From NCBI RefSeq assembly GCF_009017255.1, contig NZ_WBZB01000017.1, positions 1 to 64,000 of the forward strand: a stretch of DNA of 64,000 nucleotides. Reading direction: 5' to 3'. The notes under the pieces are model-generated. The model was not told the origin of the DNA, made no database searches, and worked only from the letters and a program-made list of their open reading frames with translations. The translations under genes were made by a program, and so were the position numbers. Positions 39,197 through 59,836 of the stretch are shown in pieces; positions within the stretch are counted from its first letter, which is position 1, and the number at the start of each line of letters is the position of its first letter. The DNA is from Alkaliphilus serpentinus. Lineage in GTDB: Bacteria; Bacillota; Clostridia; Peptostreptococcales; Natronincolaceae.

Positions 39197-40852
39197 ATGA
39201 AAAGGCAAAATGGAATAACCGTGGATGACATCATGAAATTAAAATGTATGGAAAATTGCAAAGTGATTGCTGGGGCCAATGGTCTTAATAATCCCGTTGC
39301 AAAGGTTAACATGACTGTGGATCCGGATATTCTAGCATGGCTAGATGCAGGAGAATTCTTATTAACAACTGCTTATTCCTTTAAGACTGAAGATATAGAG
39401 GTTCAAAAGAACCTTATAACCCATTGCGCCCAGAAAGGGGTGGCAGGCATAGGTATAAAGGTATATCCTTATGTAGAGGCTCTTCCTGAAGAAATAATCG
39501 AAACAGCCAACCAATTGAATTTTCCAATAGTTGATATATATCATGAGACTCCCTTGTCGGATATAACTTCCGACATCTTTAAGGAAATTTTTAATAAGCA
39601 GGCCTCCCTTCTTCAAAGGTTAGAGAAAATCCATGAGCAACTGATGCATGTTGTTCTTAGTGGAGGAGAGATTAAGGATGTAGTAAGGGTGGTTCATGAA
39701 AATCTGCAAAATCCAATACTGGTTAAGATAGAGCATCAAGAAGAAGTGACTATGGGGCTTAATGAGTATATCAAAGACACAAGTGCTTCCTTGTTAAGTA
39801 ATTATACCCGATTTTACGATAGTATGGAGAATAAGGTTAAGGAAAGGAAGTTCAATGAGACAATTGAGCTTATAAATGGTCAACGGGTAAGGCGTATGGT
39901 TATGCCAATCATTGTTAAAAACAATGTCTATGGACATATATTCTCTTGGGCCCTTAAAACTCCCTTGGGAGGCTTCGACCTATCGGTATTGGAGACTGCT
40001 TCAACAACTATTGCTTTAGAGGTATTAAAACAGCTTTCTATAAGAGATGTTGAAAATCGCCATAGGGCTGAATTTATGGAGGATCTTTTATCCTTAGATA
40101 TGAATCGAAAGGAAAAGGCCCTTGAAAAGGCAACTGTGTTTAAGTTGGGATACGATCAAAAATATGCAATGATCTTGATACAGCTGGAGAACATAGGAGA
40201 CACAATGATTGAAGATATTCTGCAAAAGGTTGCTCTAATCAATAATGATATAGATCGATTGTCGACTGAATTAAAGCTAAACTCCTTTATTGTTAGCAAA
40301 ACCGACGGTATCTATATAATGCTTTCCTTTAATAATGAAAAGAGCCCCTACAATATTATTCCTGAATTCTGCAATAAATTGGAAAAGCTATTGAGTTTAA
40401 GATTAAAAAAGGATGAATATAAAATTGGTATCGGTCGATTATATAATGGGTTATCAAAGGTTTACAAAAGCTATATTGATGCTTCCAAGGCTATAGTAAG
40501 TGGTGGCTTAATTGGTGAGGAGAATGTTGTTTATTTCGAAAAACTGGGAATCTACAAAATCCTATGCCAGGATGTTTTAAAGGAGGAGCTGGAAAAGTTC
40601 TATTCGGTAACCCTAGAGCCTTTAGTGGAGTATGATAGAAAGAAATCAACAGAGCTGGTTAAAACCTTAGAATCTTATTATTTTAACAATGGTAATCTTA
40701 AAAAGCTATCGGATGATTTATATACCCACTACAATACAACCCTGTACCGTCTTCAAAGGATTCAGGATATTACTGGAATGCAGTTGGATAATCATAAGGA
40801 TCGTTTGAATTTGGAAATTGCCTTAAAAATTAAAAGAATATTAAAAAAATAA
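39197..40852 (+). CDS. pucR: PucR family transcriptional regulator
   Basis: A 551-residue PucR/CdaR-type regulator. The N-terminal PucR domain (about 8-130; MKLKCMENCKVIAGANGLNNPVAKVNM and AWLDAGEFLLTTAYSF) is classic for purine-catabolism regulators. A central GGDEF-related domain (about 270-400) and the C-terminal HTH_30 domain (about 480-550; LESYYFNNGNLKKLSDDLY..NTTLYRLQRIQDITG) follow. In Bacillus subtilis PucR responds to purine intermediates such as allantoin. Here it stands directly before the purine/BMC cluster, so it is the best candidate for its activator or repressor. ATG 39197 follows AAGGAG by 9 bases. The true ligand is unknown. Confidence 0.88.
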   Translation: MKRQNGITVDDIMKLKCMENCKVIAGANGLNNPVAKVNMTVDPDILAWLDAGEFLLTTAYSFKTEDIEVQKNLITHCAQKGVAGIGIKVYPYVEALPEEIIETANQLNFPIVDIYHETPLSDITSDIFKEIFNKQASLLQRLEKIHEQLMHVVLSGGEIKDVVRVVHENLQNPILVKIEHQEEVTMGLNEYIKDTSASLLSNYTRFYDSMENKVKERKFNETIELINGQRVRRMVMPIIVKNNVYGHIFSWALKTPLGGFDLSVLETASTTIALEVLKQLSIRDVENRHRAEFMEDLLSLDMNRKEKALEKATVFKLGYDQKYAMILIQLENIGDTMIEDILQKVALINNDIDRLSTELKLNSFIVSKTDGIYIMLSFNNEKSPYNIIPEFCNKLEKLLSLRLKKDEYKIGIGRLYNGLSKVYKSYIDASKAIVSGGLIGEENVVYFEKLGIYKILCQDVLKEELEKFYSVTLEPLVEYDRKKSTELVKTLESYYFNNGNLKKLSDDLYTHYNTTLYRLQRIQDITGMQLDNHKDRLNLEIALKIKRILKK

Positions 40853-40882: not shown

Positions 40883-41575
40883 TTATTCTTCTAGTAAGGC
40901 AACTGCTCTTATGGGAGATCCAGAGCCTCCTCTAATTTTCAAAGGTAGACCAAAATATAAGAATCTCTTATTTACCAAAAGATGAAGATTTAAAAGATTT
41001 TCCGTGTTGGTTATGTCATATTCACCACATACTAAGTGACCGGAGAAGTTGATATCATCTGGATGATCAATGGCAGGTGCATCCACCCCGATATTAACCA
41101 CACCAGCTTCTGCTAACCATTTAGCTGCTGCATAGCTTAAACCGGTATAGGTGGTTTGCCATTTGTCAGTACCATAATGACGATCATGATGGCCGGTATA
41201 CATAAGTAAAATATCGCCCTTTTCTATTTTTAAACCAGACTTGGCAACGGCTTGCTCTAAATCTTTGGGTTCAATATAGCGAGTAGGGGGTATGTGGGAG
41301 AGATCGATGCAAATTGCGCTTCCCCAGAAATACTCCAAAGGCATATTTTCAATAGTAGCACCAGAGGGCTTATATTCCCAAACAGCATCGCAATGGGTGC
41401 CACCATGCTCGCTTATAAGCAAATTTCTAGCTGAAAAGCCTAAAGCCTTACTACCAGTTGTCTGCATATTCTCCTCGTGGGTCATATTGGTCATAATAAA
41501 GGTAGGTTGATGCATGGGGAATACAGACATTCCTTGAAAAATTTCCTGTGATAAATCGATTAGCTTTAATGGCAT
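40883..41575 (-). CDS. Cyclase-family metal-dependent hydrolase
   Basis: A 230-residue protein of the cyclase family (Pfam cyclase; kynurenine formamidase and isatin hydrolase relatives), metal-dependent hydrolases of amides and lactams. The metal-binding motif is plain: SEHGGTHCDAVWEY (HxxxHxD-type, about residues 54-68), with a later DAPAIDHP and GDILLMYTGHHDRHYG. It is divergent from the chemoreceptor, lies between the PucR gene and the BMC locus, and converges with pucR. Isatin hydrolase opens a lactam ring, which makes opening of 4-imidazolone to formiminoglycine a reasonable but untested role here. It has no signal peptide. Confidence 0.85.
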   Translation of the reverse strand: MPLKLIDLSQEIFQGMSVFPMHQPTFIMTNMTHEENMQTTGSKALGFSARNLLISEHGGTHCDAVWEYKPSGATIENMPLEYFWGSAICIDLSHIPPTRYIEPKDLEQAVAKSGLKIEKGDILLMYTGHHDRHYGTDKWQTTYTGLSYAAAKWLAEAGVVNIGVDAPAIDHPDDINFSGHLVCGEYDITNTENLLNLHLLVNKRFLYFGLPLKIRGGSGSPIRAVALLEE

Positions 41576-43606: not shown

Positions 43607-44512
43607 ATGAAAGAAAAACAATATGTATTAGCTGTGCCAAACTTCAGTGACGGAAGAAGAAAAGAGGTTATAGAAGCTGTGGTTGAGCCCTTTAGAAATG
43701 CTGAGGGAGTTACTCTAGTTAGCTATGAACCAGAGCATGATTTCAACAGAACAGTAGTTACCGTGATCGGTGAGCCAGAGCCTTTAAAAGAAGCATTGCT
43801 ACAAATGGCAGGCAAGTGCTATGAATTAATCAACATGGAGGAGCAAGAAGGAAGTCATCCGAGGATTGGTGCCCATGATACAATTCCGCTATTCCCCTTC
43901 AAAAACATCACCCTTGAAGAGTGTACTGCCTTGGCTGAAGAAATTGGAAAAGAAGTTTATGCAAGATACCAAGTTCCAGTATATTTCTCAGGACAAAATG
44001 CTCGAAATGAAGATAGAAAGGCTTTATCTTTCATTAGAAAGGGTCAATATGAAGGGTTAAAAAAGGTAGCCCATACCGATGAAAGAAAACCGGATATAGG
44101 ACCAGCTGCCCTTCACCCAACAGCAGGTGCAACTATTGTTAGTGCAGATAGTGAAGGTTTAACAGCTTATAATGTTTTCTTAGCCACAGAAGATTTAAAT
44201 ATTGCTAAAGCCATTGCTAAAGGAGTTAGAGGACCAAGTGGTGGATTCTCAACAATCAGAGCAGTGGGAATCAAGTTCCCAGAGAGATCTGGTGTGGTTG
44301 TATCAATGAATATGTTTGACTGTGGAGCAACTCCTTTATATAGAGCCTTTAATTTTGTGAAACAAGAAGCAGCAAGATATGGGGTTATTGTAACAGGGTC
44401 AGAAATTGTTGGGCCAATAAAACTGGACTATGTCTTGAATTCTTTTGAATATTACTTAGGCTTAGAGAACTTCAGAAAAGATCAAATTCTTGAAACACAC
44501 CTAATGAAATAA
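43607..44512 (+). CDS. ftcD: Glutamate formimidoyltransferase-type enzyme (formiminoglycine transferase candidate)
   Basis: A 301-residue monofunctional formiminotransferase that moves a formimino group to tetrahydrofolate. The catalytic histidine lies in EGSHPRIGAHDTIPLFP (His84, matching the known His82 of the pig enzyme). The N-terminal PNFSDGRRKEVIEAVV and PNFS-type folate region are conserved. The usual substrate is formiminoglutamate from histidine breakdown, but no other hut gene is here. Its place at the head of the BMC cluster suggests formiminoglycine, the last intermediate of xanthine fermentation, is the donor. AAGGAGG precedes ATG 43607. The cyclodeaminase half found in eukaryotic FTCD is absent, as is usual in bacteria. 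Confidence 0.9.
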   Translation: MKEKQYVLAVPNFSDGRRKEVIEAVVEPFRNAEGVTLVSYEPEHDFNRTVVTVIGEPEPLKEALLQMAGKCYELINMEEQEGSHPRIGAHDTIPLFPFKNITLEECTALAEEIGKEVYARYQVPVYFSGQNARNEDRKALSFIRKGQYEGLKKVAHTDERKPDIGPAALHPTAGATIVSADSEGLTAYNVFLATEDLNIAKAIAKGVRGPSGGFSTIRAVGIKFPERSGVVVSMNMFDCGATPLYRAFNFVKQEAARYGVIVTGSEIVGPIKLDYVLNSFEYYLGLENFRKDQILETHLMK

Positions 44513-44572: not shown

Positions 44573-45988
44573 ATGAAGTATGATGTTGTTTTAAAAAATG
44601 CTAGAATTCCTCAGGGAAATGAAACTGTAGTAACACATATTCTGGTAAAGGATGAAAAAATCGCAGGTTTTGTTACTGACTTAGAAGGTATAGAATATGG
44701 AAGAGAAATCGATGCAGAGGGACATTTAACCCTTCCAGGCTGCTTTGACTCTCATACCCACTTTATGGATCCTGGCTTTACCCATAGAGAAACCTTCTTA
44801 ACAGGATCATCCTCTGCTGCAGCTGGTGGATTAACCATGATTATGGATATGCCCTGCTGCTCAAAGCCTTCAGTAAGAGGTGTAGAAGAGCTAGAGCACA
44901 AGCTGAATGCCATTAAGGATCAAGCGGTTATTGACTATGCTATGTGGGGTGGAGTAACTGGCGAAGACATTAGAGCTGGTAAGAAGCAAATTGTAAAAGA
45001 ACAAGCTGATTACGGTGTATGCGCCTTTAAAGTTTATATGACTCCTTCAGTACCTACCTATGAAAGGGTAACGGATCCTGAAATGCTTGAAGCCTTTAGA
45101 TGGGTTGCAGAAACTGGAGTTCCAGTAGGAATCCATGCTGAAAACTTTGCGATGTGCGATTATTTTGTGAAGAAGTTCCAAAAGGAAGGTAGAACCGATG
45201 GTCCAGCTTGGGCAGAAGCAAGATGCGTAGAAGCTGAGCAGGCAGCCATTGAACTAGGAATTAACTTTGCTGAATCTACTGGTGCAAGACTTCACATTGT
45301 TCATATGAGTGCAGGAGTTGGTGCAAGATTGATAGGAGCTGCTAAAAAGAGGGGATTAAGTGTTACATCAGAAACCTGCCCTCACTATTTAATGCTTAAC
45401 TATCAAGATGCAATGACCGAGCATAGACAATTTGCAAAAATCGCACCACCTTTAAGAACTAAGAAGGATAATGAAGAGCTTTGGGAAGGGTTAAGGAATG
45501 GAAGCGTAGACTTCATGGCTACAGACCACGCTCCATATGAAATTGCAACTGAGAAGGAAGGTCCAGGAATGGATATATGGTCAGCCTTCCCAGGTATCCC
45601 AGGTGTTGAAACTTTAGTTCCGATAGTAGTTAGTGAAGGGTATAACAAGGGAAGATTATCCTTAAGCAGACTTGTTGAAGTGCTTAGTACAGCACCTGCA
45701 AGACAATATGGTTTATATCCTAAAAAGGGTGCCACTATGATCGGTTCTGATGCAGATTTCACCATCATTGATTTAGAAAAAGAATGGACCATCGATCAAA
45801 AGGAAACCTATTCTATGGCTAAATACAATCCATTGCACGGAATTAAGCTAAAGGGTAAGCCAGTTAAAACGATTGTACGTGGAACCTTAGTATATGACGA
45901 TAAGGAAGGTATTGTTGTTGAGCCAGGTTTTGGTCAATTTGTAAGACGTCAAAGAATAGAAAAGCTTGAAAGAACAATAACATACTAA
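44573..45988 (+). CDS. Dihydroorotase/hydantoinase/allantoinase-family cyclic amidohydrolase
   Basis: A 471-residue binuclear metal amidohydrolase. The metal ligands are DSHTHF (His61, His63), a probable carboxylated Lys153 (CAFKVYM), GIHAEN, HIVHMS and ATDHAP (Asp318). This is the full set for cyclic-amide hydrolases such as allantoinase, hydantoinase and dihydroorotase. Pyrimidine genes are absent, and the gene sits between formimidoyltransferase and an isochorismatase-family amidase inside a purine cluster. The simplest reading is that it opens the pyrimidine ring of xanthine to 4-ureido-5-imidazolecarboxylate ('xanthine amidohydrolase'). That assignment is inference; allantoin is the main alternative, though no uricase is nearby. 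Confidence 0.85.
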   Translation: MKYDVVLKNARIPQGNETVVTHILVKDEKIAGFVTDLEGIEYGREIDAEGHLTLPGCFDSHTHFMDPGFTHRETFLTGSSSAAAGGLTMIMDMPCCSKPSVRGVEELEHKLNAIKDQAVIDYAMWGGVTGEDIRAGKKQIVKEQADYGVCAFKVYMTPSVPTYERVTDPEMLEAFRWVAETGVPVGIHAENFAMCDYFVKKFQKEGRTDGPAWAEARCVEAEQAAIELGINFAESTGARLHIVHMSAGVGARLIGAAKKRGLSVTSETCPHYLMLNYQDAMTEHRQFAKIAPPLRTKKDNEELWEGLRNGSVDFMATDHAPYEIATEKEGPGMDIWSAFPGIPGVETLVPIVVSEGYNKGRLSLSRLVEVLSTAPARQYGLYPKKGATMIGSDADFTIIDLEKEWTIDQKETYSMAKYNPLHGIKLKGKPVKTIVRGTLVYDDKEGIVVEPGFGQFVRRQRIEKLERTITY

Positions 45989-46019
45989 TTAGAGAACTAT
46001 GAAAAATGGAGGAAAGAAA

Positions 46020-46622
46020 ATGCCAAGACACGCGATATTAGTAATAGACATGTTAAACGACTTTGTAGGAGTTAAGGCTCCATTAAGATGCCCAGGTGGA
46101 GAAGAAATCGTTGCTGATCTACAAAAGCTATTTAAATGGGTAAGAAGCAGAAATAACGACGATGTTCAATTAGTTCATATTCAAGAAGCCCATAGAAAAA
46201 ATGATGCAGACTTTAGAGTAAGACCCGTTCATGCTGTTAAGGGTTCTTGGGGTTCAGACTTCATCCCTGAGCTATATCCAGAGGGTGAAGAATATATTGT
46301 ACAAAAAAGAAGACATAGTGCCTTTGCCCACACTGACTTAGATTTATTCTTACGTGAAGAAGCAATTGATACAGTAGTTGTTACGGGTGTTTGGACAAAT
46401 GTATGCGTAAGAAGCTCTGCTACCGATGCTTTAGCAAATGCATACAAGGTAATCACCTTAAGTGATGCCTGCGCTTCTAAAACGGAAGAGATGCATTTAA
46501 ATGGATTAAAGGACCTAAGTATATTCACCAAGATTATGACAGTTGATGAATATATTCAAGCTTGGGAAAAAGGTGAAGATCCATGGCTTGGCGGCGGAGA
46601 CGCTGAAAATAAAGTAGAATAG
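46020..46622 (+). CDS. Isochorismatase/N-carbamoyl amidase-family hydrolase
   Basis: A 200-residue cysteine hydrolase of the isochorismatase superfamily with its full catalytic triad, Asp10 (LVIDML), Lys96 (VQKRRHSAF) and Cys129 (TNVCVRSS). The group includes N-carbamoylsarcosine amidase, ureidoacrylate amidase and nicotinamidase, which cleave amide or ureido groups. It follows the cyclic amidohydrolase by 31 bp, so removal of the ureido group of 4-ureido-5-imidazolecarboxylate is a natural proposal. ATG 46020 has GGAGG 7 to 8 bases upstream. The C-terminal tail is acidic (about 25 residues); whether it serves targeting is unknown. Confidence 0.88.
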   Translation: MPRHAILVIDMLNDFVGVKAPLRCPGGEEIVADLQKLFKWVRSRNNDDVQLVHIQEAHRKNDADFRVRPVHAVKGSWGSDFIPELYPEGEEYIVQKRRHSAFAHTDLDLFLREEAIDTVVVTGVWTNVCVRSSATDALANAYKVITLSDACASKTEEMHLNGLKDLSIFTKIMTVDEYIQAWEKGEDPWLGGGDAENKVE

Positions 46623-46664: not shown

Positions 46665-46700
46665 AATGATAGTATGCCAACACTAGAAAGTGGTGAGGAG

Positions 46701-47258
46701 ATGCGGATAGTTGTAGGAATATCTGGAGGAAGCTGTGGGATTTATGGTGTGGGACTCTTAAAGGTTTTACAGGAGCTTAATATAGAAACCCATCTTGTAG
46801 TTTCTACAATGGGGGAATATGTTGTTAAGCACGAATGTGGTATGGACTTAGATGAGCTAAAAGGCCTTGCAACCCATTATCACAATAATAAAGACCTTGC
46901 TGCACCAATATCCAGTGGATCCTTTAAAACCAACGGAATGATTATTATACCCTCCTCAATGAGAACCTTAGCAGCAGTAGCAAATGGTATTTCTGATAAT
47001 CTACTGACAAGGGCAGCCGATGTAACGATAAAAGAGAGTAGAAGGCTTGTAATCGTCCCTCGGGAGACACCATTAAGCGTAATTCATTTAGAAAACATGC
47101 TAAAGCTCGCTAAGATGGGGGTTAGGATAATGCCAGCAGCACCAGGCTTTTACCATCAACCAGAAACCATTGAAGAGATTGTAAGCATTATAGTTGGACG
47201 AGCCCTAGACCAACTGGATATAGAGCATAATTTACTAAAAAGATGGGGCGGAGTTTAA
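46701..47258 (+). CDS. ubiX: UbiX-type flavin prenyltransferase
   Basis: A 185-residue UbiX/Pad1 family protein, which makes the prenylated flavin (prFMN) needed by UbiD decarboxylases. Signatures are the N-terminal MRIVVGISGGSCGIYG (a variant of the usual GxTGASG), IIIPSSMRTLAAVANGISDNLLTRAADVTIKE, RRLVIVPRETPLS and the C-terminal GFYHQPETIEEIV. The start ATG 46701 is chosen because the family normally begins here; an ATG at 46674 is in frame but has no ribosome binding site. It is separated from the UbiD gene by 173 bp filled with repeats. It should supply prFMN to that enzyme, which is the only UbiD in view. Confidence 0.9.
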   Translation: MRIVVGISGGSCGIYGVGLLKVLQELNIETHLVVSTMGEYVVKHECGMDLDELKGLATHYHNNKDLAAPISSGSFKTNGMIIIPSSMRTLAAVANGISDNLLTRAADVTIKESRRLVIVPRETPLSVIHLENMLKLAKMGVRIMPAAPGFYHQPETIEEIVSIIVGRALDQLDIEHNLLKRWGGV

Positions 47259-47261
47259 AAC

Positions 47262-47291
47262 GCACAACGGGGACGGTTCTTATTGGGCAAT
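47262..47291. repeat. REP-like repeat copy A (intergenic)
   Basis: Thirty bases beginning GCACAACGGGGACGGTTCTT match 57045-57074 at all but one position. The intergenic patch to about 47400 also holds AATTAAGAAT words and a tandem of CAACAATT, so it looks like a mosaic of dispersed repeats inserted between ubiX and ubiD. Confidence 0.75.
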
Positions 47292-47431
47292 ATAAACAAC
47301 TCAAAAAGCAATAATATAGGTATAATTAAGAATTAAGAATATAAGACCGAAATTTGCAACTGCAAATATCCTCAACAATTCAACAATTCAACATTCAATA
47401 TAATAGATTCTTATCAGAAAGGAGGGGCTAG

Positions 47432-48787
47432 ATGGAAAGACAAATGCTGAGGGCTGCTTTAGATAAGTTAAAAAGAAAGGGCGTACTTCTAGAATGTAAT
47501 AAGGAAGTAGACCCAAAGTTTGAGCTAGGAGCAGTCTTAAAACACTTTAGTAACGAGGTACCAATCCTATTCAAAAAGGTTAAAGGTAGTAAAATACCGG
47601 TTGTTGGGGCTATGTTTGGTGAAAGAAAAATCTATTATGATATGCTGGGAATCACCCATGAGGAAAGAATCTTTAAAATGATGGATGCTATAGCCAATCC
47701 AAAGCCAACAAAGCTATTGACAAAGGGCCCAGTAATGGAGAACATCATTACAAAAAATATCGATTTGCCTAAAATGTTTCCGATTCCAACCTTCCATGAA
47801 GAAGATTCTTCAAGCTACATAACAGCTGGCCTTGTAGTGATAAAGGATCCAGAAACCGGTCAAAGACATGTGTCTGTTAGAAGGCTTCAGATTAATGGCG
47901 GAAATGAAATGAGCGTACTGGTGGCATCGCCCCTTGCAAACAAGCAATATTTAGAGATGGAAAAGTTAAACAAACCACTGGAGATTGCTGTCGTTTTAGG
48001 GTATGATTATAGTATATTGTTAGCGTCTCAAATAAGCAGTGAAACCTATGGTGTAGATAAATATGAAGTGGATAGCGCCCTGCGGGGAGAACCATTGGAG
48101 CTTGTTAAGTGTCATAGCATAGATTTAGAGGTTCCAGCCCACGCAGAAATTGTATTTGAAGGTATTATGCCTCCCCATCGACGAGTTACTGAAGGCCCCT
48201 TTGGGGAGTTAATGGGATACTACGGCAATGTTGGTCCCCATCCAGTTATGGAGGTTAAAGCCATCATGCACCGTAACAACCCAATCTTTCAAACTGCCTT
48301 CCCTTCAAGGGAGGAGCATTTATCTAATGGGCTAATTAGAGAAATAGAGTTATACTCTGCTTTAAAGACCATGGTGGATGTAAAGGATGTCAATGTAACT
48401 GTATCTGGAGGCTGTAGATTCCATGCCTTTGCAGCTATAAACAAGCGAAATGCTGGAGATGGTAAAAGTGCCATTATAGCCGCACTAGCCAGCAGTAAGG
48501 ATGTAAAGCACGTAGTAATCGTAGATAACGATGTAGATATATTTAGTCATGATGATATGGAATGGGCAATAGCATCAAGAGTGCAGGCATCAAGAGATTT
48601 AGTGGTTATACCTGGCGCCTTAGGGTCAGGACTGGAACCATCCCATGGATTGAATGGCGTAACCGACAAAATCGGTATAGATGCTACTAAACCACTAGGT
48701 GACGCTGGTAAAAAATTTGAAAGAGCAAAAATTCCTGGATTTGAAAAAATCGATATTGAAAAATATCTTCCAGGAATCAAATTATAG
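47432..48787 (+). CDS. ubiD: UbiD-family prFMN-dependent decarboxylase (aminoimidazolecarboxylate decarboxylase candidate)
   Basis: A 451-residue UbiD-type decarboxylase. The N-terminal helix (RAALDKLKRKGVLLE), VSVRRLQING (candidate catalytic Arg150/151) and EGPFGELMGYYG with Glu254 and Glu259 correspond to the Arg-Glu-Glu set of the family; GALGSGLEPS near the C-terminus is also typical. UbiD proteins remove CO2 from aromatic or unsaturated acids using prFMN made by UbiX. In this cluster, 4-amino-5-imidazolecarboxylate is a chemically suitable substrate, because the classical xanthine pathway has exactly that decarboxylation. AAAGGAGG precedes ATG 47432. The gene lies immediately before the first shell gene. 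The substrate is an inference. Confidence 0.88.
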   Translation: MERQMLRAALDKLKRKGVLLECNKEVDPKFELGAVLKHFSNEVPILFKKVKGSKIPVVGAMFGERKIYYDMLGITHEERIFKMMDAIANPKPTKLLTKGPVMENIITKNIDLPKMFPIPTFHEEDSSSYITAGLVVIKDPETGQRHVSVRRLQINGGNEMSVLVASPLANKQYLEMEKLNKPLEIAVVLGYDYSILLASQISSETYGVDKYEVDSALRGEPLELVKCHSIDLEVPAHAEIVFEGIMPPHRRVTEGPFGELMGYYGNVGPHPVMEVKAIMHRNNPIFQTAFPSREEHLSNGLIREIELYSALKTMVDVKDVNVTVSGGCRFHAFAAINKRNAGDGKSAIIAALASSKDVKHVVIVDNDVDIFSHDDMEWAIASRVQASRDLVVIPGALGSGLEPSHGLNGVTDKIGIDATKPLGDAGKKFERAKIPGFEKIDIEKYLPGIKL

Positions 48788-48805: not shown

Positions 48806-49072
48806 ATGAAGCAAGCCTTAGGTTTTGTTGAAACTCGAAGTCTTGTTGCAGCAATTGAAGCAGCTGATGCCATGGTTAAGTCTGCAAATGTAAGAATCGT
48901 TGAATTTAACTATGTAGGATCAGGTGTAGTGGCAGTAGTTGTAGCAGGAGAGGTTGCTGCAGTGCAAGCAGCTGTAGCAAGTGGAGCTGAATCAGCAGCT
49001 CAAGTATCAGAGGTTATTTCCACTAACGTAATTGCAAGACCCCACGATGAGGTGGACAAGCTTTTAGATTAA
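48806..49072 (+). CDS. BMC-H shell protein 1
   Basis: An 88-residue bacterial microcompartment hexamer protein (single BMC domain, Pfam BMC). The start [28 protein letters not shown], the central GEVAAVQAAVASGAESA and the end NVIARPHDEVDKLL all match the family. The pore-loop position reads YVGSGVV, that is the common GSG pore. Hexamers tile the facets and let small molecules through. It is first of three BMC-H genes here, 18 bp after the UbiD gene. ATG 48806 follows AGGGTGG. Confidence 0.96.
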   Translation: MKQALGFVETRSLVAAIEAADAMVKSANVRIVEFNYVGSGVVAVVVAGEVAAVQAAVASGAESAAQVSEVISTNVIARPHDEVDKLLD

Positions 49073-49099
49073 AGTAAATTTTAGATGGTGGTGATAGGT

Positions 49100-49511: not shown

Positions 49512-49889
49512 ATGAAGGCAGCATTAGGATTAATAGAAGCCATTGGTCTAACATCAGCCGTAGCAGCTTTGGACGCAGCCAGTAAGGCCGCCGATGTTAA
49601 GCTTGTAGGTTATGAAAAGGTAATAGGGGTTGATAAGGTTGTAAGTGTTACAATTCAGATTGCAGGTGAGGTAGCAGCCGTTAAGGCCGGTGTTGAGGCT
49701 GGTGTAGCTGCAGCCAATAAAATAGGCAGAATTGTATCAAGCCATGTAATTCCAAGACCCCATGAAGAGGTTGAGATGCTTATTAAAATCTTTGAGCAAA
49801 ACTTAAAGGATAAAAAGGCTCCAGCATCAAACCCAGAGGTGGCAGAAAAACCCCAGGGTAAAACTAAAAAACAAGAAGCCAATAAATAA
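49512..49889 (+). CDS. BMC-H shell protein 2 with C-terminal extension
   Basis: A 125-residue BMC-domain protein. Its core (about 1-92; [34 protein letters not shown] and [15 protein letters not shown]) is the hexamer type. The pore-loop region reads [11 protein letters not shown] in place of the usual GSG, with extra residues, so the pore is probably of different size and charge. A C-terminal tail of about 30 residues, rich in Lys, Pro and Ala ([20 protein letters not shown]), may lie on the shell face or bind cargo. AGGAGG precedes ATG 49512. Confidence 0.93.
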
Positions 49890-49927: not shown

Positions 49928-50203
49928 ATGAGTCAAGCATTAGGTTTGGTAGAAACTAAAGGTTTAGTAGGAGCAGTTGAGGCAGCAGATGCAATGGTAA
50001 AAGCTGCAAATGTTACAATCGTTGGATACGAAAAAATCGGTTTTGGTTTGGTAACTGTAATGGTAAGAGGAGATGTTGGAGCAGTAAAGGCAGCAACAGA
50101 CGCTGGAGCAGAAGCAGCTAGAGCAGTAGGAGAGCTTTATTCTGTACATGTAATCCCAAGACCACACTCAGAAGTAGAAAGAGTTCTATTAAAGGGTGAA
50201 TAA
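49928..50203 (+). CDS. BMC-H shell protein 3
   Basis: A 91-residue canonical BMC hexamer protein ([63 protein letters not shown]). The pore loop reads KIGFGLV, with Phe where Ser is usual, which would narrow the pore and make it hydrophobic. AGGAGG precedes ATG 49928. It is probably the major facet protein because it is closest to the family consensus. It is followed within 50 bp by the flavoprotein-like gene. Confidence 0.96.
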
Positions 50204-51062: not shown

Positions 51063-51347
51063 ATGCATATTGGCAGAGTCATTGGAACGATAGTGGCTAC
51101 GAGAAAGGATGAAAGGCTTGTAGGGAGTAAGCTAATGCTTACCCAGCCTTTAAATATTGATGAAGTGCCTGTAGGTGATCCACTAATTGCAGTAGATACC
51201 GTTGGGGCTGGAATCGGAGAATTAGTTATTTATGCTAAGGGTACAGCCGCTAGACATGCTGCAGAAAAGCTTCAATCCCCAATCGACGCAGCTATTGTAG
51301 GAATTATAGACAATATAGATGTTTATCGTGATTTAATTAAAAAATAA
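51063..51347 (+). CDS. BMC-P vertex protein (EutN/CcmL family)
   Basis: A 94-residue EutN/CcmL-type pentamer that caps the vertices of microcompartments. The N-terminal MHIGRVIGTIVATRKDERLVGSKL, the central DEVPVGDPLIAVDTVGAGIGELV and GTAARHAA, and C-terminal DAAIVGIIDNIDVY are diagnostic. A single BMC-P and three BMC-H genes are enough for a closed shell. GGAGAGGG precedes ATG 51063. It stands 20 bp before the divergent adenine-deaminase paralogue. Confidence 0.95.
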   Translation: MHIGRVIGTIVATRKDERLVGSKLMLTQPLNIDEVPVGDPLIAVDTVGAGIGELVIYAKGTAARHAAEKLQSPIDAAIVGIIDNIDVYRDLIKK

Positions 51348-51367: not shown

Positions 51368-53182
51368 TTGTTAGACGTTAAATGTATAAAAACAGCTATG
51401 GAGTATAGAGAGCTGATAGATATACTAATGTCAGATAAGCACTTTGCTGATGTAGTATTATATCAAGGAAACGTTGTTAATGTACTAACTAGAGAAATCT
51501 ATAGAGCAGATATCGCCTTTAAAGGAAAATATATTCTAATGGTTGGAGATGCAGAAAAGCTTATTGGACCGGATACGATTGTTGTAGATGTTCAAGGTAA
51601 GTATCTATCTCCTGGTTTTATCGACTCCCATATGCACTTCGAAAGTAGTATGTTAACGATTACAGAGTTCTCGAGGCTATCCATACCCTCAGGAACAACA
51701 ACCCTTGTGGCGGATCCCCATGAAATTGGGAATGCCTTAGGACCAATAGGAATCAAAGCCATGGCTGAAGAAGCCAGTGTTGTTCCAAACCATGTACATT
51801 TGGTGGTGCCAGCCCTAACTCCAGATTCCCCGGATTTAGAGACAGCAGGCTATGACATTACCTCCAAGGATATGAAGGAAATTTTAGGCTATCCAAATGT
51901 TATTGGTATAGGAGAGCTACAGGGCTTTAGTAATGCCAAGCACGTTTATAGAAATACACCTGAAGTAATTACAGATTTATTAGCCTCCACCATATATGCT
52001 AGAAGTATTGGTAAAATGGTGGATGGAAATGCTCCTGAGCTTTTTGGGAATGAACTGGCAGCCCATATTATCTCCACAGCGGGTGAGTGCTCATGTCATG
52101 AGACCACTACAAAGGCAGAGTGTGTAGAAAAGCTACGTCAAGGCGTATATGTATTTATGCGGGAAGGATCCACCCAAAGGAATATGGCAGAATGTATTAG
52201 AGCCGTTACTGAAGAGGGTTTTGATTCAAGACGATGCATTTTAGCAACTGATGATATGGTGGCAGAGGATTTAGAAAAGCTAGGCCACATGAATGAAATT
52301 GTTAAGAGAACCATCAATGAAGGTGTTAATCCAGTCGAAGCTATTCAAATGGTAACCATAAATCCTGCAACATACTTTGGATTAAAAGACAGGGGAATAT
52401 TGGCTCCAGGTAAGCTGGCTGATGTAGCCATCATAAGTGACATTAATAATATGGTAGTAGATGCTGTTTTCCTTGAAGGAAAGCTTGTGGCATCTCAGGG
52501 TAAGCTACTAATTGATCTGCCTACCTATACCTATCCAGATGAGGTTAAGCATTCTGTAAAGCGTAACCCAGTTACTGAAGAGGAGTTAAAGATTCCTGCC
52601 AATGGTAGCGAAGCAACAGTAAGATGTATTGGGTTAATTCCAGATCAAAACCTTTCAGATGATCATGAGGTGAGAGTAAAGGTTCAGCAAGGAGCAGTTC
52701 AAGCTGATGTAAGACAGGATGCCCTTTATATTGTTTGTGTTGAAAGGTATGGCAGAAACGGCAGTATCGGAAAGGCTTTAGTTAAGGGCTTTGGTTTAGA
52801 GCAAGGAGCCTTTGCAGAAAGTGTTGCCCACGATACCCATAATATTATGGCCGTTGGCACCAATCTAAAGGATATGGCAGCTGCGATAAACCATGTTATT
52901 GAAATGGGTGGCGGTTTAGCAGTAGCCAAAGGTGGAAGAGTGATTGATGATTTAAGACTTCCAGTTGGTGGCTTAATAACCGATGAGCTAACCGGACCAG
53001 AGGTAAGCTTAAAGATTGCTTCCATTGAAAAAACCGTTAAAGATCAATTAGGTGGTAAGGTTCATGCGCCATTTATGCATTTATCCTTCTTAGCTTTATC
53101 AACAAGTCCTAAGTGGAAAATTACCGATCAAGGCTTAATTGATGTTAACAACTTTGAAATTCTACCTCCTGTTGTAGAATAG
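51368..53182 (+). CDS. Divergent adenine-deaminase paralogue (aminoimidazole deaminase candidate)
   Basis: A 604-residue AdeC-type amidohydrolase with the metal-binding DSHMHFESS (about residues 91-99) and VADPHEIGN, and an adenine-deaminase C-terminal domain. Compared with the canonical adenine deaminase at 59842, residues around the active site differ: CSCHETT instead of TEHECST, ATDDMVAEDL instead of CTDDKHPDDI, and GHMNE instead of GHIDN. It also has an extra N-terminal segment of about 18 residues (VKCIKTAMEYRELIDILM) that could form an amphipathic helix, the usual form of a BMC encapsulation peptide. It lies directly after the vertex gene. Deamination of 4-aminoimidazole to 4-imidazolone is my suggested reaction. 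TTG 51368 follows GGAGGGG. Confidence 0.8.
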   Translation: MLDVKCIKTAMEYRELIDILMSDKHFADVVLYQGNVVNVLTREIYRADIAFKGKYILMVGDAEKLIGPDTIVVDVQGKYLSPGFIDSHMHFESSMLTITEFSRLSIPSGTTTLVADPHEIGNALGPIGIKAMAEEASVVPNHVHLVVPALTPDSPDLETAGYDITSKDMKEILGYPNVIGIGELQGFSNAKHVYRNTPEVITDLLASTIYARSIGKMVDGNAPELFGNELAAHIISTAGECSCHETTTKAECVEKLRQGVYVFMREGSTQRNMAECIRAVTEEGFDSRRCILATDDMVAEDLEKLGHMNEIVKRTINEGVNPVEAIQMVTINPATYFGLKDRGILAPGKLADVAIISDINNMVVDAVFLEGKLVASQGKLLIDLPTYTYPDEVKHSVKRNPVTEEELKIPANGSEATVRCIGLIPDQNLSDDHEVRVKVQQGAVQADVRQDALYIVCVERYGRNGSIGKALVKGFGLEQGAFAESVAHDTHNIMAVGTNLKDMAAAINHVIEMGGGLAVAKGGRVIDDLRLPVGGLITDELTGPEVSLKIASIEKTVKDQLGGKVHAPFMHLSFLALSTSPKWKITDQGLIDVNNFEILPPVVE

Positions 53183-53293: not shown

Positions 53294-54613
53294 GTGAGTT
53301 TAAGAACCGAAAGTAGTTTCTTAGAAAGAAGGTTTAAGTTAAGTGAACACAAAACCAATGTAAAAACAGAAATCCTTGCTGGTATTACAACTTTCATGAC
53401 AATGGCGTATATCTTAATTGTAAACCCATTGATTCTGTCTGATGCAGGAATGGATTTTGGTGCAGTTTTCACTGCTACTGCACTTTCATCAATTGTCGCA
53501 ATTTTAGTAATGGCTTTTTATGCTAATTATCCCTTTGCTTTAGCACCTGGTATGGGATTAAATGCATTTTTTGCCTACACAGTTGTTCTGCAAATGGGTT
53601 ATTCTTGGGAATTTGCCCTTACAGCAGTTTTAATTGAAGGTATAATTTTTATACTAATGTCTTTTGTTAATGTAAGGGAAGCAATTATTAACTCTATTCC
53701 AATCAATCTTAAGCATGCAGTATCCGTTGGAATTGGATTATTTATTGCATTCATAGGATTAACTGGTGCTGGAGTAGTTAAAACAGGAAATGGAACCATT
53801 GTTGCCTTAGGAGACTTAACAGCAGCAGCTCCTTTACTAGCCCTTTTAGGTATTGTTATTACAGGATTCCTATTGGCTAAAAAGGTAAAGGGTGCTCTTC
53901 TATTCGGTATCCTTGCTACTACCATCATAGGTATACCAATGGGAGTAACCCAATGGCCAGGTTGGAATCTTATAAGTGCTCCTCCTTCATTATCACCAAT
54001 ATTCTTCAAATTTGATTTTGCCAATATATTCACCTTTGATATGCTAGTTGTTGTATTTACCTTCTTATTTGTAGATGTGTTTGACACAGTTGGTACATTA
54101 ATAGGTGTATCATCAAAGGCAAATATGCTAGATAAAGAAGGTAAACTTCCAAGGGCAAAGCAAGCTTTATTTGCTGATGCTATAGGAACAACAGTAGGTG
54201 CTTGTTTAGGAACCAGTACAGTTACAACCTATGTTGAAAGTGCTTCTGGAGTTGCAGAAGGTGGAAGAACTGGTTTAACAGCCCTTTCAACTGGAGCCAT
54301 GTTTGCAATAGCTCTATTCCTTTCACCGCTATTCATCATGATCCCTTCAGCAGCAACTGCACCAGCATTGGTATTAGTAGGTCTATTCATGATGTCACCT
54401 ATCAAGAATATAGATCTTGATGATTTTACAGAAGCCATTCCAGCCTTCCTAACAATCATCATGATGCCTTTAGGCTACAGTATTGCTGATGGTATAGTAT
54501 TTGGTATCGTTTCATATGTATTATTAAAGCTTTTCACTGGTAAAGGTGGTAAAGTATCTCCAATACTATATATATTAGCTGTGCTATTTGTCTTAAAATT
54601 CCTTGTTCACTAA
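53294..54613 (+). CDS. AzgA/PbuG-type purine (NCS2) permease
   Basis: A 439-residue membrane transporter of the NCS2 family, in the hypoxanthine/guanine/adenine subgroup (AzgA, PbuG). Signatures: ETEILAGITTFMTMAYILIVNP, FALAPGMGLNAFFAYTV, VGIGLFIAFIGLTGAGVV, FLFVDVFDTVGTLIGVSSKANMLD and GTSTVTTYVESASGVAEGGRTGL. About twelve to fourteen helices. GTG 53294 follows GAGGGGG. It presumably imports purines for the cluster. The 110-bp gap before it has a GGGGGACAG REP-type word and no purine riboswitch core, so control by the usual PurR/xpt-type riboswitch is not supported. Confidence 0.93.
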   Translation: MSLRTESSFLERRFKLSEHKTNVKTEILAGITTFMTMAYILIVNPLILSDAGMDFGAVFTATALSSIVAILVMAFYANYPFALAPGMGLNAFFAYTVVLQMGYSWEFALTAVLIEGIIFILMSFVNVREAIINSIPINLKHAVSVGIGLFIAFIGLTGAGVVKTGNGTIVALGDLTAAAPLLALLGIVITGFLLAKKVKGALLFGILATTIIGIPMGVTQWPGWNLISAPPSLSPIFFKFDFANIFTFDMLVVVFTFLFVDVFDTVGTLIGVSSKANMLDKEGKLPRAKQALFADAIGTTVGACLGTSTVTTYVESASGVAEGGRTGLTALSTGAMFAIALFLSPLFIMIPSAATAPALVLVGLFMMSPIKNIDLDDFTEAIPAFLTIIMMPLGYSIADGIVFGIVSYVLLKLFTGKGGKVSPILYILAVLFVLKFLVH

Positions 54614-54799: not shown

Positions 54800-56137
54800 A
54801 TGAATAAAATATTAATTAAAAATGCACTTATAGTTACTATGAATAATAGGAGGGATATATTCAAAGGCGACATCTTAATTGAGGGAGATAGAATTAAGGA
54901 AATGTCCCCTAAGTTAGAGATGGAGGCCGATACGGTTATAGATGCCACCGGCAAAACGGTTATACCTGGTATGATACAAACCCATATTCACTTAACCCAA
55001 ACCCTTTACAGAGGTCAAGCAGATGATCTAGAGCTTTTAGACTGGTTAAAACAGAGGGTATGGCCATTGGAGGGATCCCATACAGCAGAGTCTAATTATG
55101 TTTCTGCAAAGTTAGGAATTGCTGAGCTTATTAAGGGAGGAACAACCTCTATAATTGATATGGGGACAGTAAACCACTCTGATTCAATTTTTGAAGCCAT
55201 TGAAGAAAGTGGGTTTAGAGCAATATCTGGTAAGTGTATGATGGACTACGGAATTGGTGTTCCAGACACCCTAATGGAGGATACCAATGAATCTATCAAG
55301 GAAAGTGAAAGGCTGCTGAAAAAGTGGCATGGTAAGGCAAACAACAGAATCCAATATGCTTTTGCACCAAGGTTTGTGGTATCTTGTACCGAAGAGCTTT
55401 TAGTGAAGGTAAGGGATTTGAGTAAGGAATATGGTGTGATGGTTCATACCCATGCTTCTGAAAATAGAGGAGAAATTGAATTGGTTCAAAGGGATAGAGG
55501 CATGAGAAATGTACTATATCTCGACAAACTGGGAATGACTGGTGATCAGCTGATTCTTGCCCATTGTATCTGGTTGGATGACGAGGAAATGAAGATTTTA
55601 GCAGCAACTGGTACGAAGATTTCCCACTGTCCAAACTCTAATTTAAAGCTTGCATCAGGGATTGCAAAAATACCAGAGTTATTGGAGATGAATGCTTCTG
55701 TATCAATTGCAGCCGATGGAGCTCCTTGCAATAATAACCTTGACATCTTTAAGGAGATGAGAAGTGCAGCCCTGATTCAAAAAGCAAGATTATTAAGCCC
55801 AACTGTAATGCCAGCCCATAAGGTATTTGAGTTAGCAACCATCGGTGGAGCTCAAGCAATGGGAATGGAAAAGGAACTTGGAAGTCTAGAAGTAGGTAAA
55901 AAGGCAGATATAGTTATTCTAGATTTAAATAAAATCCACTGCAGTCCTTCCGATGAGGTGGATGTTGTATCGAGAATTGTTTATTCAGCTGATGCCTGTG
56001 ATGTTGACACTACAATAATTGACGGAAAAATTGTAATGAAAAATCGGGAGCTTTTAACCTTGTCGGAGAAGGAAATTATGGAGGACTCCAACAGACTGGT
56101 AAAACAGCAAATTCAATTGGCCAATGTAAAAAAATAA
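54800..56137 (+). CDS. Amidohydrolase of the guanine deaminase/SsnA/MtaD group
   Basis: A 445-residue mononuclear metal amidohydrolase of the group containing guanine deaminase, SsnA, methylthioadenosine/S-adenosylhomocysteine deaminase and 5'-deoxyadenosine deaminase. Metal ligands: MIQTHIHLTQT (two His), VHTHASEN, LAHCIWLDD, and the aspartate in SIAADGAPCNNN. In a purine-degradation cluster guanine-to-xanthine deamination is the natural role, but the NNNLDIFKEMR segment is also seen in nucleoside-type members, so a deaminase for guanine or a related purine is as far as I go. AGGAGG precedes ATG 54800. Next are the purine hydroxylase subunits. Confidence 0.85.
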   Translation: MNKILIKNALIVTMNNRRDIFKGDILIEGDRIKEMSPKLEMEADTVIDATGKTVIPGMIQTHIHLTQTLYRGQADDLELLDWLKQRVWPLEGSHTAESNYVSAKLGIAELIKGGTTSIIDMGTVNHSDSIFEAIEESGFRAISGKCMMDYGIGVPDTLMEDTNESIKESERLLKKWHGKANNRIQYAFAPRFVVSCTEELLVKVRDLSKEYGVMVHTHASENRGEIELVQRDRGMRNVLYLDKLGMTGDQLILAHCIWLDDEEMKILAATGTKISHCPNSNLKLASGIAKIPELLEMNASVSIAADGAPCNNNLDIFKEMRSAALIQKARLLSPTVMPAHKVFELATIGGAQAMGMEKELGSLEVGKKADIVILDLNKIHCSPSDEVDVVSRIVYSADACDVDTTIIDGKIVMKNRELLTLSEKEIMEDSNRLVKQQIQLANVKK

Positions 56138-56193: not shown

Positions 56194-57114
56194 ATGGATA
56201 TAAAAAACGTATTCCAAGCAAAAGATGTACCTGAGGCTATTAACTTATTAGATCAATACGGGGAAGCTGCAAAGGTTATTGCTGGAGGTACAGACATTAT
56301 AATTGCTTTAAGAGAAAATCACGTTAAGGTATCGGTTTTAGTTGACATATCATCCATTAAAGAGCTAAAGGAAATAAAGACTTCAGATGATTGGGTTGAA
56401 ATGGGGGCGGCTGTTACCTTTACAGAGGTGATGGATTATTTTAAGGGTCATAAGGAATACTCAGGTTTAATTGAAGCTGCTTCATTAGTAGGATCACCCC
56501 AAATAAGAAATGCAGCTACTATTGGCGGGAATATATGTAACGCCTCACCAGCGGCCGACTTTGTACCACCTTTACTGGCTTTAGACGCAGTTCTTACAGT
56601 AGAAGGTAAAGAAGGTAAAAGAGAAGTTCGATTAGAGGATTTCCTTTTAGACAAGGGTAGGGTAGATTTAAACAAAGGAGAGCTTCTTACTACCATTAAA
56701 TTTATAAGGCTTCGGAAGGGTCAAACTGTGACCTTTAGTAAGCTAGGCTTAAGAAAGGCTCTAGCCATATCAAGACTTTCTACAGCGGTTTATTTGGAAA
56801 TAGATGATGACGAAAAGTGTGCAGAGGTGAGAGTTGCCAGTGGGTCCATCGGAAAGCATGGCCTTAGAGAAAGGGTTGCAGAAGAATCCCTAAAGGGAAA
56901 GAATTTAGATAAAGCTGCTATAGATGAAGCCTCAAAGGTTTTAAGTAACGAAGTAGAAAAAAGACTTGCTGGCCGTTCCAGCTGTGAGTTTAAAAAGGAC
57001 GCAGTAGAGGGAATATTCCTGAAGGCAGTAGAAAAGGCAATGGTGCACAACGGGGACGGTTCTTATTGTGCAATGGGCACTCAATATTATCCCAGAGCAG
57101 CGGGAAAGGAATGA
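56194..57114 (+). CDS. xdhB: Purine hydroxylase FAD-binding subunit
   Basis: A 306-residue FAD-binding subunit of a molybdenum hydroxylase (xanthine dehydrogenase/CoxM family). AGGTDIIIALRE (FAD pyrophosphate loop), GSPQIRNAATIGGNICNASPAAD and RKALAISRLSTAVYLEI mark the domain. The last about 20 residues are abnormal: a REP-type repeat (57044-57072) reads in frame as VHNGDGSYCAM-type sequence near residues 284-293, replacing or extending the normal end. GAGGAGTGA precedes ATG 56194. Its partner genes follow immediately. The enzyme would oxidise hypoxanthine (or another purine) to xanthine and pass electrons through FAD. Confidence 0.92.
   Translation: MDIKNVFQAKDVPEAINLLDQYGEAAKVIAGGTDIIIALRENHVKVSVLVDISSIKELKEIKTSDDWVEMGAAVTFTEVMDYFKGHKEYSGLIEAASLVGSPQIRNAATIGGNICNASPAADFVPPLLALDAVLTVEGKEGKREVRLEDFLLDKGRVDLNKGELLTTIKFIRLRKGQTVTFSKLGLRKALAISRLSTAVYLEIDDDEKCAEVRVASGSIGKHGLRERVAEESLKGKNLDKAAIDEASKVLSNEVEKRLAGRSSCEFKKDAVEGIFLKAVEKAMVHNGDGSYCAMGTQYYPRAAGKE
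57044..57074. repeat. REP-like repeat copy B inside xdhB
   Basis: This copy has inverted ends TGCACAA (57044-57050) and TTGTGCA (57066-57072) around a GGGGACGGTT core and matches the intergenic copy at 47262-47291 in 29 of 30 bases. It is read in frame as the C-terminal part of the FAD subunit. Confidence 0.8.
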
Positions 57115-57121
57115 TAATAAA

Positions 57122-57598
57122 ATGAAAACCATAAATGTAAAGATCAACGGTGAAAATTACACCCGTGAAATTAACGAAGATATGAGATTACTGGATTTTA
57201 TTAGAGATGAGCTAAAGCTCTATGGTACAAAAGAAGGCTGTGGTGAAGGTGAATGTGGTGCCTGCACTGTGATAATGGATGGAGTAACAGTGAACTCTTG
57301 TATGGTGATGGCCTTTCAAGCTAATAACAAGGAAATATTAACAATAGAAGGTATGGAGGATGAAAAGGGTCTTCATCCTATTCAACAAGCTTTTTTAGAT
57401 GAAGGAGCAGTTCAATGTGGTTTTTGCATACCAGGGATGGTACTGTCAGCTAAAGCCCTCTTAGACAAAAATCCAAAGCCTTCACGAAAGGAAATTAAAG
57501 AAGGTATATCTGGAAACCTATGCAGATGTACAGGTTATAACAAAATCGTGGATAGTATCGAAAAGGCTTCCCAATATTTAGAGGGGGAGGATCAATAA
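57122..57598 (+). CDS. xdhC: Purine hydroxylase [2Fe-2S] subunit
   Basis: A 158-residue iron-sulfur subunit of a molybdenum hydroxylase. It has the plant-type ferredoxin cluster (GCGEGECGACTVIMDGVTVNSC) in the first half and the helical second cluster (CGFCIPGMVLSAKALL, NLCRCTGYNKIV) in the second. It carries electrons between Mo and FAD. I choose ATG 57122 because the family starts with MKTINVKINGE; a longer frame from 57068 overlaps the FAD gene. It overlaps the following gene by one base (ATGA-type junction). The symbol follows the common naming and may differ between species. Confidence 0.93.
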   Translation: MKTINVKINGENYTREINEDMRLLDFIRDELKLYGTKEGCGEGECGACTVIMDGVTVNSCMVMAFQANNKEILTIEGMEDEKGLHPIQQAFLDEGAVQCGFCIPGMVLSAKALLDKNPKPSRKEIKEGISGNLCRCTGYNKIVDSIEKASQYLEGEDQ

Positions 57599-58860
57599 TG
57601 AAGAAAAATCTAGAGGTTGTAGGAAAAAGCGTCATCAGAGTGGATGGATTTTCAAAGGTTACCGGCAAGGCCACCTACTCTCAGGATTTAACGATGGATA
57701 ATATGCTATGGGGAAAAACCCTAAGATCTACAAAGCCCCATGCTAACATAAAGCTGAATTTAACAAAGGCAGAGGTCATTCCTGGAGTGGTACGTATTCT
57801 AACCTATAAGGATGTACCCCATAATCATCATGGAGTGGTTTTTAAGGACCACGAAGTTTTAAGTAGTGGAAGGGTTCGCTCAATAGGTACTCCCATTGCC
57901 TTTGTGGTGGCAGAAACCGAAAAAATTGCGGTAGAAGCAATGAAGGCAATAGAAGTGGAATATCAGGAGTTGGAGGCAGTCTTCGATCCTGTTGAAGCCA
58001 TGAAGGAGGATGCACCTAAGGTCCATGAAAATGGCAATCTTCTCTATCACTATAAGCTTAGATTGGGAGATGTAGATGCTGCCTTTAAGGAATGTGCTGT
58101 AATTGTTGAGAATCAATACAAAACCTCAATGGTTGACCATGCTTTTTTACAGCCAGAGGCAGGTATAGCTTATTTAGAGGAGGATATGGTGGTGGTTTGT
58201 GCTGCTACTCAATACCCCCATTTTGATCAGCTTGAAATTGCTGAGGCGCTGGAAGTTCCTACAGAAAAGGTGAAGGTATTAAATCCAGCCGTTGGTGGTG
58301 CCTTTGGTGGTAGAGAAGATATTACAATGCAAATACATCTGGCATTGGCTTCAAAGCTAACGGGAAGGCCAGTAAAAACGGTTTACTCTAGAGAAGAATC
58401 CTTTGTAGCCCATAGTAAAAGACACCCAATGATTATGAGCTATAAAACCGGAGCAGATAAAAACGGTAAGCTTATAGCTATGGAGGCTAAGATTGTAGGA
58501 GATACTGGAGCCTATGCATCATGGGCCATTAACGTTTTAAGAAAGGCAGGAGTCCACGCAACTGGGCCCTATGAAATACCCAATGTCAAGGTTGATAGCT
58601 ATGCCGTTTATACCAATAATCCCTTTGCAGGGGCCATGAGGGGCTTTGGTGCAACTCAAACACCTATTGGTCATGAGCAGCAAATGGATATGTTAGCAGA
58701 AAAGCTTAATATGAACCCTTTAGAAATAAGATTTTTAAATGCATTAAAAAAAGGCTCAAAAACTGCAACCGGTCAGATTCTAGAAGAGAGCTTCCCTTTG
58801 AAGGAATGCTTAGAGGTATTAGAAAAAGCCTTTAAAAAAGATGCAAAGGGGGTTGAATAA
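57598..58860 (+). CDS. Purine hydroxylase molybdenum subunit, N-terminal part (split)
   Basis: A 420-residue protein equal to the first half of the large molybdenum-cofactor subunit of xanthine-dehydrogenase-type enzymes: the ab-hammerhead domain (SVIRVDGFSKVTGKATYSQDL) and the first Mo-binding domain (AATQYPHFDQLEIAEAL, NPAVGGAFGGREDITMQIH, FAGAMRGFGATQTPIGHEQQMDMLAEKL). It ends where other proteins continue with the second Mo domain, which is encoded by the next gene. A clean stop and a new ribosome binding site show that this is a true split, as in nicotinate dehydrogenase of Eubacterium barkeri, rather than a sequencing error. Confidence 0.9.
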   Translation: MKKNLEVVGKSVIRVDGFSKVTGKATYSQDLTMDNMLWGKTLRSTKPHANIKLNLTKAEVIPGVVRILTYKDVPHNHHGVVFKDHEVLSSGRVRSIGTPIAFVVAETEKIAVEAMKAIEVEYQELEAVFDPVEAMKEDAPKVHENGNLLYHYKLRLGDVDAAFKECAVIVENQYKTSMVDHAFLQPEAGIAYLEEDMVVVCAATQYPHFDQLEIAEALEVPTEKVKVLNPAVGGAFGGREDITMQIHLALASKLTGRPVKTVYSREESFVAHSKRHPMIMSYKTGADKNGKLIAMEAKIVGDTGAYASWAINVLRKAGVHATGPYEIPNVKVDSYAVYTNNPFAGAMRGFGATQTPIGHEQQMDMLAEKLNMNPLEIRFLNALKKGSKTATGQILEESFPLKECLEVLEKAFKKDAKGVE

Positions 58861-58861
58861 T

Positions 58862-59836
58862 ATGAAGAAACGTGGATTTGGCTACGGATGCATCTTTTAT
58901 GGAACAGGTTACGGCAATGGCTTCCCCGACATATCTAGATCTATTGCTGAGCTTGATACAAAGGGGCATATTAATATTTATGTAGGAGCAACAGAAGTGG
59001 GGCAAGGGGCTAAGACAATTCTAGGACAAATAGCTGCAGAAGCCCTGGATGTACCTGTTGAAATCGTTACTTTAATCCATGAAGACACCAGCATTACCCC
59101 TGATGCAGGTACAGCTGCTGCCAGTCGACAAACCTATAATACAGGAAATGCTGTTAAGATCTCTGCTGAGGAGTTAAAGAAGGAAATCATAGTTGTTGCC
59201 AAGGGTTTATTAAATGAAGACCACCTAGAAATCAGTAATGGAGTAATTAGATCTAATACTTCTGATAAAACCCTGACGCTAAAGGACATTGCCGAAGCTT
59301 CTGGCGGAGGTTTTTTAAGAAAAGACGGGATATTTCAGGCCAACACAACAGAAATGGACCCGGAAACAGGTCAAGGGAATCCCTATTGGCCTTACACTAT
59401 AAATGCCTATGCAGTTGAGGTTGAGGTAGATACAACAACTGGAATAGTAGATATCATCAGAGCTGCATGCAGTCAGGACGTTGGTAGAGCCATTAACCCT
59501 AGTCTTGTTGAAGGTCAGATAGATGGCGGTTTTGCAATGGGGTTAGGCTATGCAATCTTTGAAGATATTAATTTAGATAAAGGTAGAATAAAGCATAATC
59601 GCTTTACCAATTATTTAATTCCAACAGCTTTAGATATGCCAGAGATAGAAAAAATTATTGTAGAGGATCCTGAGTCTACAGGACCCTTCGGAGCAAAGGG
59701 AATAGGGGAGCCTGTTATGATAGCCGCTGCACCGGCAATACTAAATGCTATATATGATGCAGTGGGTGTAAGGTTAACAGAGATTCCTGTAACTCCTGAA
59801 AAGCTTTTAAAGGCCTTAAAGAAAAGGGAGGGATAA
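58862..59836 (+). CDS. Purine hydroxylase molybdenum subunit, C-terminal part (split)
   Basis: A 324-residue protein equal to the second Mo-binding domain of a molybdenum hydroxylase: VGATEVGQGAKTILGQIAAEAL, AASRQTYNTGNAVK, SQDVGRAINPSLVEGQIDGGFAMGLGYAIFED, and the catalytic glutamate in GPFGAKGIGEP. It works with the preceding gene product as one large subunit. ATG 58862 has AAAGGGGG 9 bases before it. In the similarly organised clostridial enzymes the Mo carries a labile selenium ligand (not selenocysteine); whether that holds here cannot be seen from sequence. The following adenine deaminase begins after six bases. Confidence 0.9.
   Translation: MKKRGFGYGCIFYGTGYGNGFPDISRSIAELDTKGHINIYVGATEVGQGAKTILGQIAAEALDVPVEIVTLIHEDTSITPDAGTAAASRQTYNTGNAVKISAEELKKEIIVVAKGLLNEDHLEISNGVIRSNTSDKTLTLKDIAEASGGGFLRKDGIFQANTTEMDPETGQGNPYWPYTINAYAVEVEVDTTTGIVDIIRAACSQDVGRAINPSLVEGQIDGGFAMGLGYAIFEDINLDKGRIKHNRFTNYLIPTALDMPEIEKIIVEDPESTGPFGAKGIGEPVMIAAAPAILNAIYDAVGVRLTEIPVTPEKLLKALKKREG

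Follow-up and report, generated by a model that had tools for sequence, protein, structure and literature searches.

A UbiX-UbiD pair as the probable prFMN-dependent imidazolecarboxylate decarboxylase of a clostridial xanthine-utilization locus

Ravcheev et al. 2019 (PMC6620236) describe in their main text a locus from five genomes that they assigned to anaerobic xanthine use, and they gave the fourth step to XauD (Amet_4581), the only decarboxylase of the locus. The names UbiX and UbiD do not appear in that main text, and its relevant section contains no phylogeny of the decarboxylase, which we provide here. According to a 2025 paper (PMC12507026) that cites Tong et al. 2023, the gene cluster of a xanthinase pathway, which likewise degrades xanthine independently of oxygen in Clostridia and Bacilli, was recently identified. 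For Clostridium acidurici, which ferments purines, the published genome paper names no genes that carry out these steps, and we found no literature that connects UbiD with microcompartments or aminoimidazole with xanthine.

The window analyzed here, a stretch of 64,000 nucleotides from Alkaliphilus serpentinus, carries a xanthine-utilization compartment (Xau/BUF1) locus, with the shell genes, decarboxylase, amidases, ring-opening hydrolases, formiminotransferase, and xanthine dehydrogenase of that gene set (Table 1). It matches the XauD locus in locus type, in the step assigned to the decarboxylase, and, as far as the locus tags allow, in the gene order around the decarboxylase. An earlier reading made from the sequence alone had placed a UbiX/UbiD pair at 46701-48787, between an amidase and the first shell gene and with no ubiquinone or aromatic-acid genes nearby. 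Our analysis agreed on each point, since the pair is recognized by UbiX models, by the UbiD Pfam domains, and by TIGR00148, lies between the amidase (45999-46622) upstream and the shell gene (48806-49072) downstream, and has purine genes as its neighbors. Such a pair was to be expected here after the 2019 prediction of the role and the 2023 identification of the gene set. The imidazolecarboxylate decarboxylase role is very probably right and already in the literature, and the window holds an orthologue, to which we add as new evidence the conserved linkage in 80 relatives, the shell-free loci, and the UbiD clade.

Table 1. Features of the xanthine-utilization locus in the window
Feature	Position	Strand	Basis
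PucR-type purine catabolism regulator	39197..40852	+	PF07905, PF13556
Cyclase-family metal hydrolase, second ring-opening hydrolase	40883..41575	-	PF04199; weak match to kynurenine formamidases
Formiminotransferase (glycine formiminotransferase candidate)	43607..44512	+	FTCD_N, TIGR02024 311.6 bits
Hydantoinase/allantoinase-like cyclic amidohydrolase, ring-opening step	44573..45988	+	Allantoinase/hydantoinase models; solved hydantoinase 1GKR
Isochorismatase-family amidase, probable 4-ureido-5-imidazolecarboxylate amidohydrolase	45999..46622	+	PF00857; adjoins UbiX in related loci
UbiX flavin prenyltransferase, makes prFMN	46701..47258	+	NF004685 246.6 bits, TIGR00421 237 bits
UbiD-family decarboxylase (XauD), probable substrate 4-amino-5-imidazolecarboxylate	47432..48787	+	UbiD_N/UbiD/UbiD_C, TIGR00148
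BMC shell protein 1	48806..49072	+	PF00936
BMC shell protein 2	49512..49889	+	PF00936
BMC shell protein 3	49928..50203	+	PF00936
EutN/CcmL pentameric vertex protein	51063..51347	+	PF03319
Adenine-deaminase-like hydrolase, candidate 4-aminoimidazole deaminase	51368..53182	+	TIGR01178 477 bits
Xanthine/uracil permease	53294..54613	+	PF00860
TRZ/ATZ amidohydrolase (purine deaminase type)	54800..56137	+	NF005557 720 bits
Xanthine dehydrogenase subunits: FAD, Fe-S, Mo subunit in two ORFs	56194..59836	+	XdhB, XdhC, XdhA/PucD models

Both curated UbiX models, NF004685 (cut-off 188 bits) and TIGR00421, matched the first gene of the pair above their cut-offs, and its nearest solved structures are those of UbiX (1SBZ and 6M8V). 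The longest UbiX ORF spans 46674-47258 on the forward strand, but the family-model match begins at residue 10 of that ORF; the tenth codon, at 46701, is therefore the better start, as the earlier reading had chosen. In UbiD, the N-terminal (PF20695), central (PF01977), and C-terminal (PF20696) Pfam domains all scored over their cut-offs, and the TIGR00148 score was 320 bits against a cut-off of 244.85. The genome encodes one UbiD and three proteins with a Flavoprotein domain, namely UbiX, which is its sole UbiX-like gene product, an open frame of 410 amino acids that resembles CoaBC and lies on a different contig, and a weakly matching protein of the UbiX operon (50250-51038), whose C-terminal part matches an uncharacterised ethanolamine-compartment family. 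In the 173 bases that separate UbiX from UbiD, no sign of a VdcD-like subunit was detected; no ORF of at least 80 amino acids was listed there, and there is room for a 57-residue peptide at most.

Other genes of the locus showed features of their own. The amidase aligned with the solved structure 3HB7 at 385 bits, so a structure already exists for a very close homologue of a pathway enzyme. Between the shell genes, a 133-amino-acid protein (49085-49486) has no Pfam or NCBIfam match; since just 8 of the 80 related loci yielded a relative, it is fast evolving or local, and it is possibly a cargo linker. Xanthine dehydrogenase has its molybdenum subunit divided between two ORFs (57598-58860 and 58841-59836), with a G-rich stretch (AAAGGGGG) upstream of the ATG at 58862; among comparable related loci, this subunit is split in 23 of 34 and forms a single frame in the other 11.

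The 2023 abstract on the xanthinase gene set reportedly names four hydrolases and a prFMN-dependent decarboxylase. For the window, we put at roughly 0.9 the probability that UbiX makes prFMN and that UbiD uses it to decarboxylate 4-amino-5-imidazolecarboxylate to 4-aminoimidazole in the clostridial xanthinase pathway. This is the role proposed by the sequence-only reading, and gene context, conservation, and phylogeny support it; the substrate, the mechanism, and the location of UbiD inside the shell are what we infer. Xanthine would first be opened to 4-ureido-5-imidazolecarboxylate, from which the amidase would take off the carbamoyl group. UbiD with prFMN would then remove CO2 from the resulting 4-amino-5-imidazolecarboxylate, a deaminase would convert 4-aminoimidazole to 4-imidazolone, a second hydrolase would yield formiminoglycine, and the formiminotransferase would produce glycine and formimino-THF. 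As an alternative to the assignment of the ring-opening hydrolases by Ravcheev et al. 2019, we considered that the hydantoinase acts on xanthine and the cyclase-type enzyme on imidazolone, a choice that leaves the decarboxylation step unaffected. In that step, the electron-rich ring carbon likely attacks the prFMN iminium by electrophilic aromatic substitution before CO2 leaves, and a glutamate (Glu259 or Glu254) likely reprotonates the ring carbon. The pyrrole-2-carboxylate decarboxylase HudA shows that an imidazole substrate is feasible, since it forms an adduct between prFMN and imidazole and turns over 1.3% of imidazole-4-carboxylate; the amino group would raise the reactivity of the ring.

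A search of bacterial genomes recovered 80 loci whose UbiD is 47 to 81% identical to that of the window, 51 of them with full flanks. All 80 of these closest relatives found are linked to xanthine genes in the same kind of locus, and UbiX adjoins UbiD in 79, the remaining locus being interrupted by a contig end. UbiX, EutN, shell genes, and the adenine-deaminase-like gene were each present in 51/51 full-flank loci, and the amidase, hydantoinase, and cyclase-type hydrolase in 50, 49, and 48, respectively; nine genomes of the same class had the same gene order. When we searched for xanthine genes around HmfF-group relatives of 41 to 48% identity, we found none. G451 and G523, two genomes from a single genus, encode no BMC-domain protein, yet both carry the hydantoinase, amidase, and UbiD genes side by side. 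UbiX and the cyclase-type gene lie elsewhere in these genomes, the latter next to the formiminotransferase gene in G523 and next to the adenine-deaminase-like gene, at contig ends, in G451. That these enzymes stay together without a shell supports a shared pathway.

In a tree of 67 UbiD sequences, the window UbiD fell in a clade with 100/100 support that holds all compartment-linked sequences and the shell-free pair. The sequence-only reading had recognized that its proposal would be undermined by a UbiD lying among phenolic decarboxylases, but the tree placed none of these inside the clade; AroY, VdcC, and AnInD branch far outside it, on long branches. A general housekeeping function on a phenolic or quinone precursor, which the family name alone would suggest, is thus extremely unlikely, because no such genes lie nearby and the UbiD gene travels with the purine operon, and we rejected such a role on gene context and tree. 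The clade of the furan-dicarboxylate decarboxylase HmfF is the probable sister group, with weak support (90/68). HmfF (PDB 6H6V) was also the best structural match of the predicted UbiD structure (mean pLDDT of 86), with 43 to 44% identity, a TM-score of 0.92, and a Z of about 50, and the two enzymes share the fold and the catalytic residues. As the nearest characterised relative, HmfF raises the question of whether the window UbiD might be an HmfF-type decarboxylase for furan, pyrrole, or other heteroaromatic acids and sit in the locus by chance. We consider this very improbable, given the separate clade at 100/100, which rules out membership of the HmfF clade, the xanthine-gene linkage of all the closest relatives found, and the invariant Arg150 and Lys210 at positions where HmfF has His and Glu.

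The catalytic residues R151, E254, and E259, equivalent to R173, E277, and E282 of Fdc1, were invariant in 88/88 relatives, a set of aligned rows that includes three duplicate pairs. The Mn2+-binding residues of Fdc1 include N168, H191, and E233 (PMC4947166), and their counterparts, assigned by alignment, are H146, L168, and K210 in the window UbiD. In the xanthine-linked clade, none of the 88 rows has Asn at the Asn168 position, where His, Tyr, or Phe mostly stands instead; the His191 position varies, with His in 6 rows, and the Glu233 position is Lys in all 88. Invariant as well is Arg150, which immediately precedes the catalytic Arg151. HmfF, in contrast, retains Asn148, His169, and Glu210 at the metal-ligand positions. 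These three ligands are a usual rather than a defining feature of the UbiD family, as most members keep them, with AroY carrying Asp in place of Asn and the His column of VdcC being poorly aligned. Lys for the metal-binding Glu was also seen in 2 of the 12 distant UbiDs aligned (L126-L137), so the change may have arisen more than once; in one of the two, L135, His also replaces Asn and Pro replaces His.

Judging from the alignment, the standard metal site appears to be gone in the xanthine-linked clade, with basic residues perhaps holding on to the phosphate of the cofactor in place of a metal. Since the canonical ligands are altered, cofactor binding may be unusual. We tentatively suggest, at somewhat less than even odds, that prFMN binding in the clade dispenses with the usual divalent metal, the invariant Lys210, perhaps together with Arg150, taking over from Mn2+ in bridging to the phosphate of the cofactor in a metal-independent variant tuned to the imidazole acid. 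The altered Asn168, His191, and Glu233 equivalents might otherwise signify a degenerate site in an enzyme that has lost prFMN chemistry, the acid being decarboxylated in another way, for example, spontaneously; indeed, aminoimidazolecarboxylic acid is labile in acid. This explanation is a shade less probable than a chance HmfF-type enzyme, because the Arg-Glu-Glu triad is intact in all relatives and UbiX stands beside UbiD in every locus that does not end with its contig there. The altered metal site is the one lead for which we found no report in the accessible literature, the decarboxylase role itself being already published.

Together, these results point to a natural imidazole substrate for a UbiD enzyme and would tie the anaerobic breakdown of purines to a prFMN enzyme, which bears on the handling of uric acid by gut bacteria. 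If the altered metal site is confirmed, the Mn2+ of other UbiD enzymes would be dispensable.
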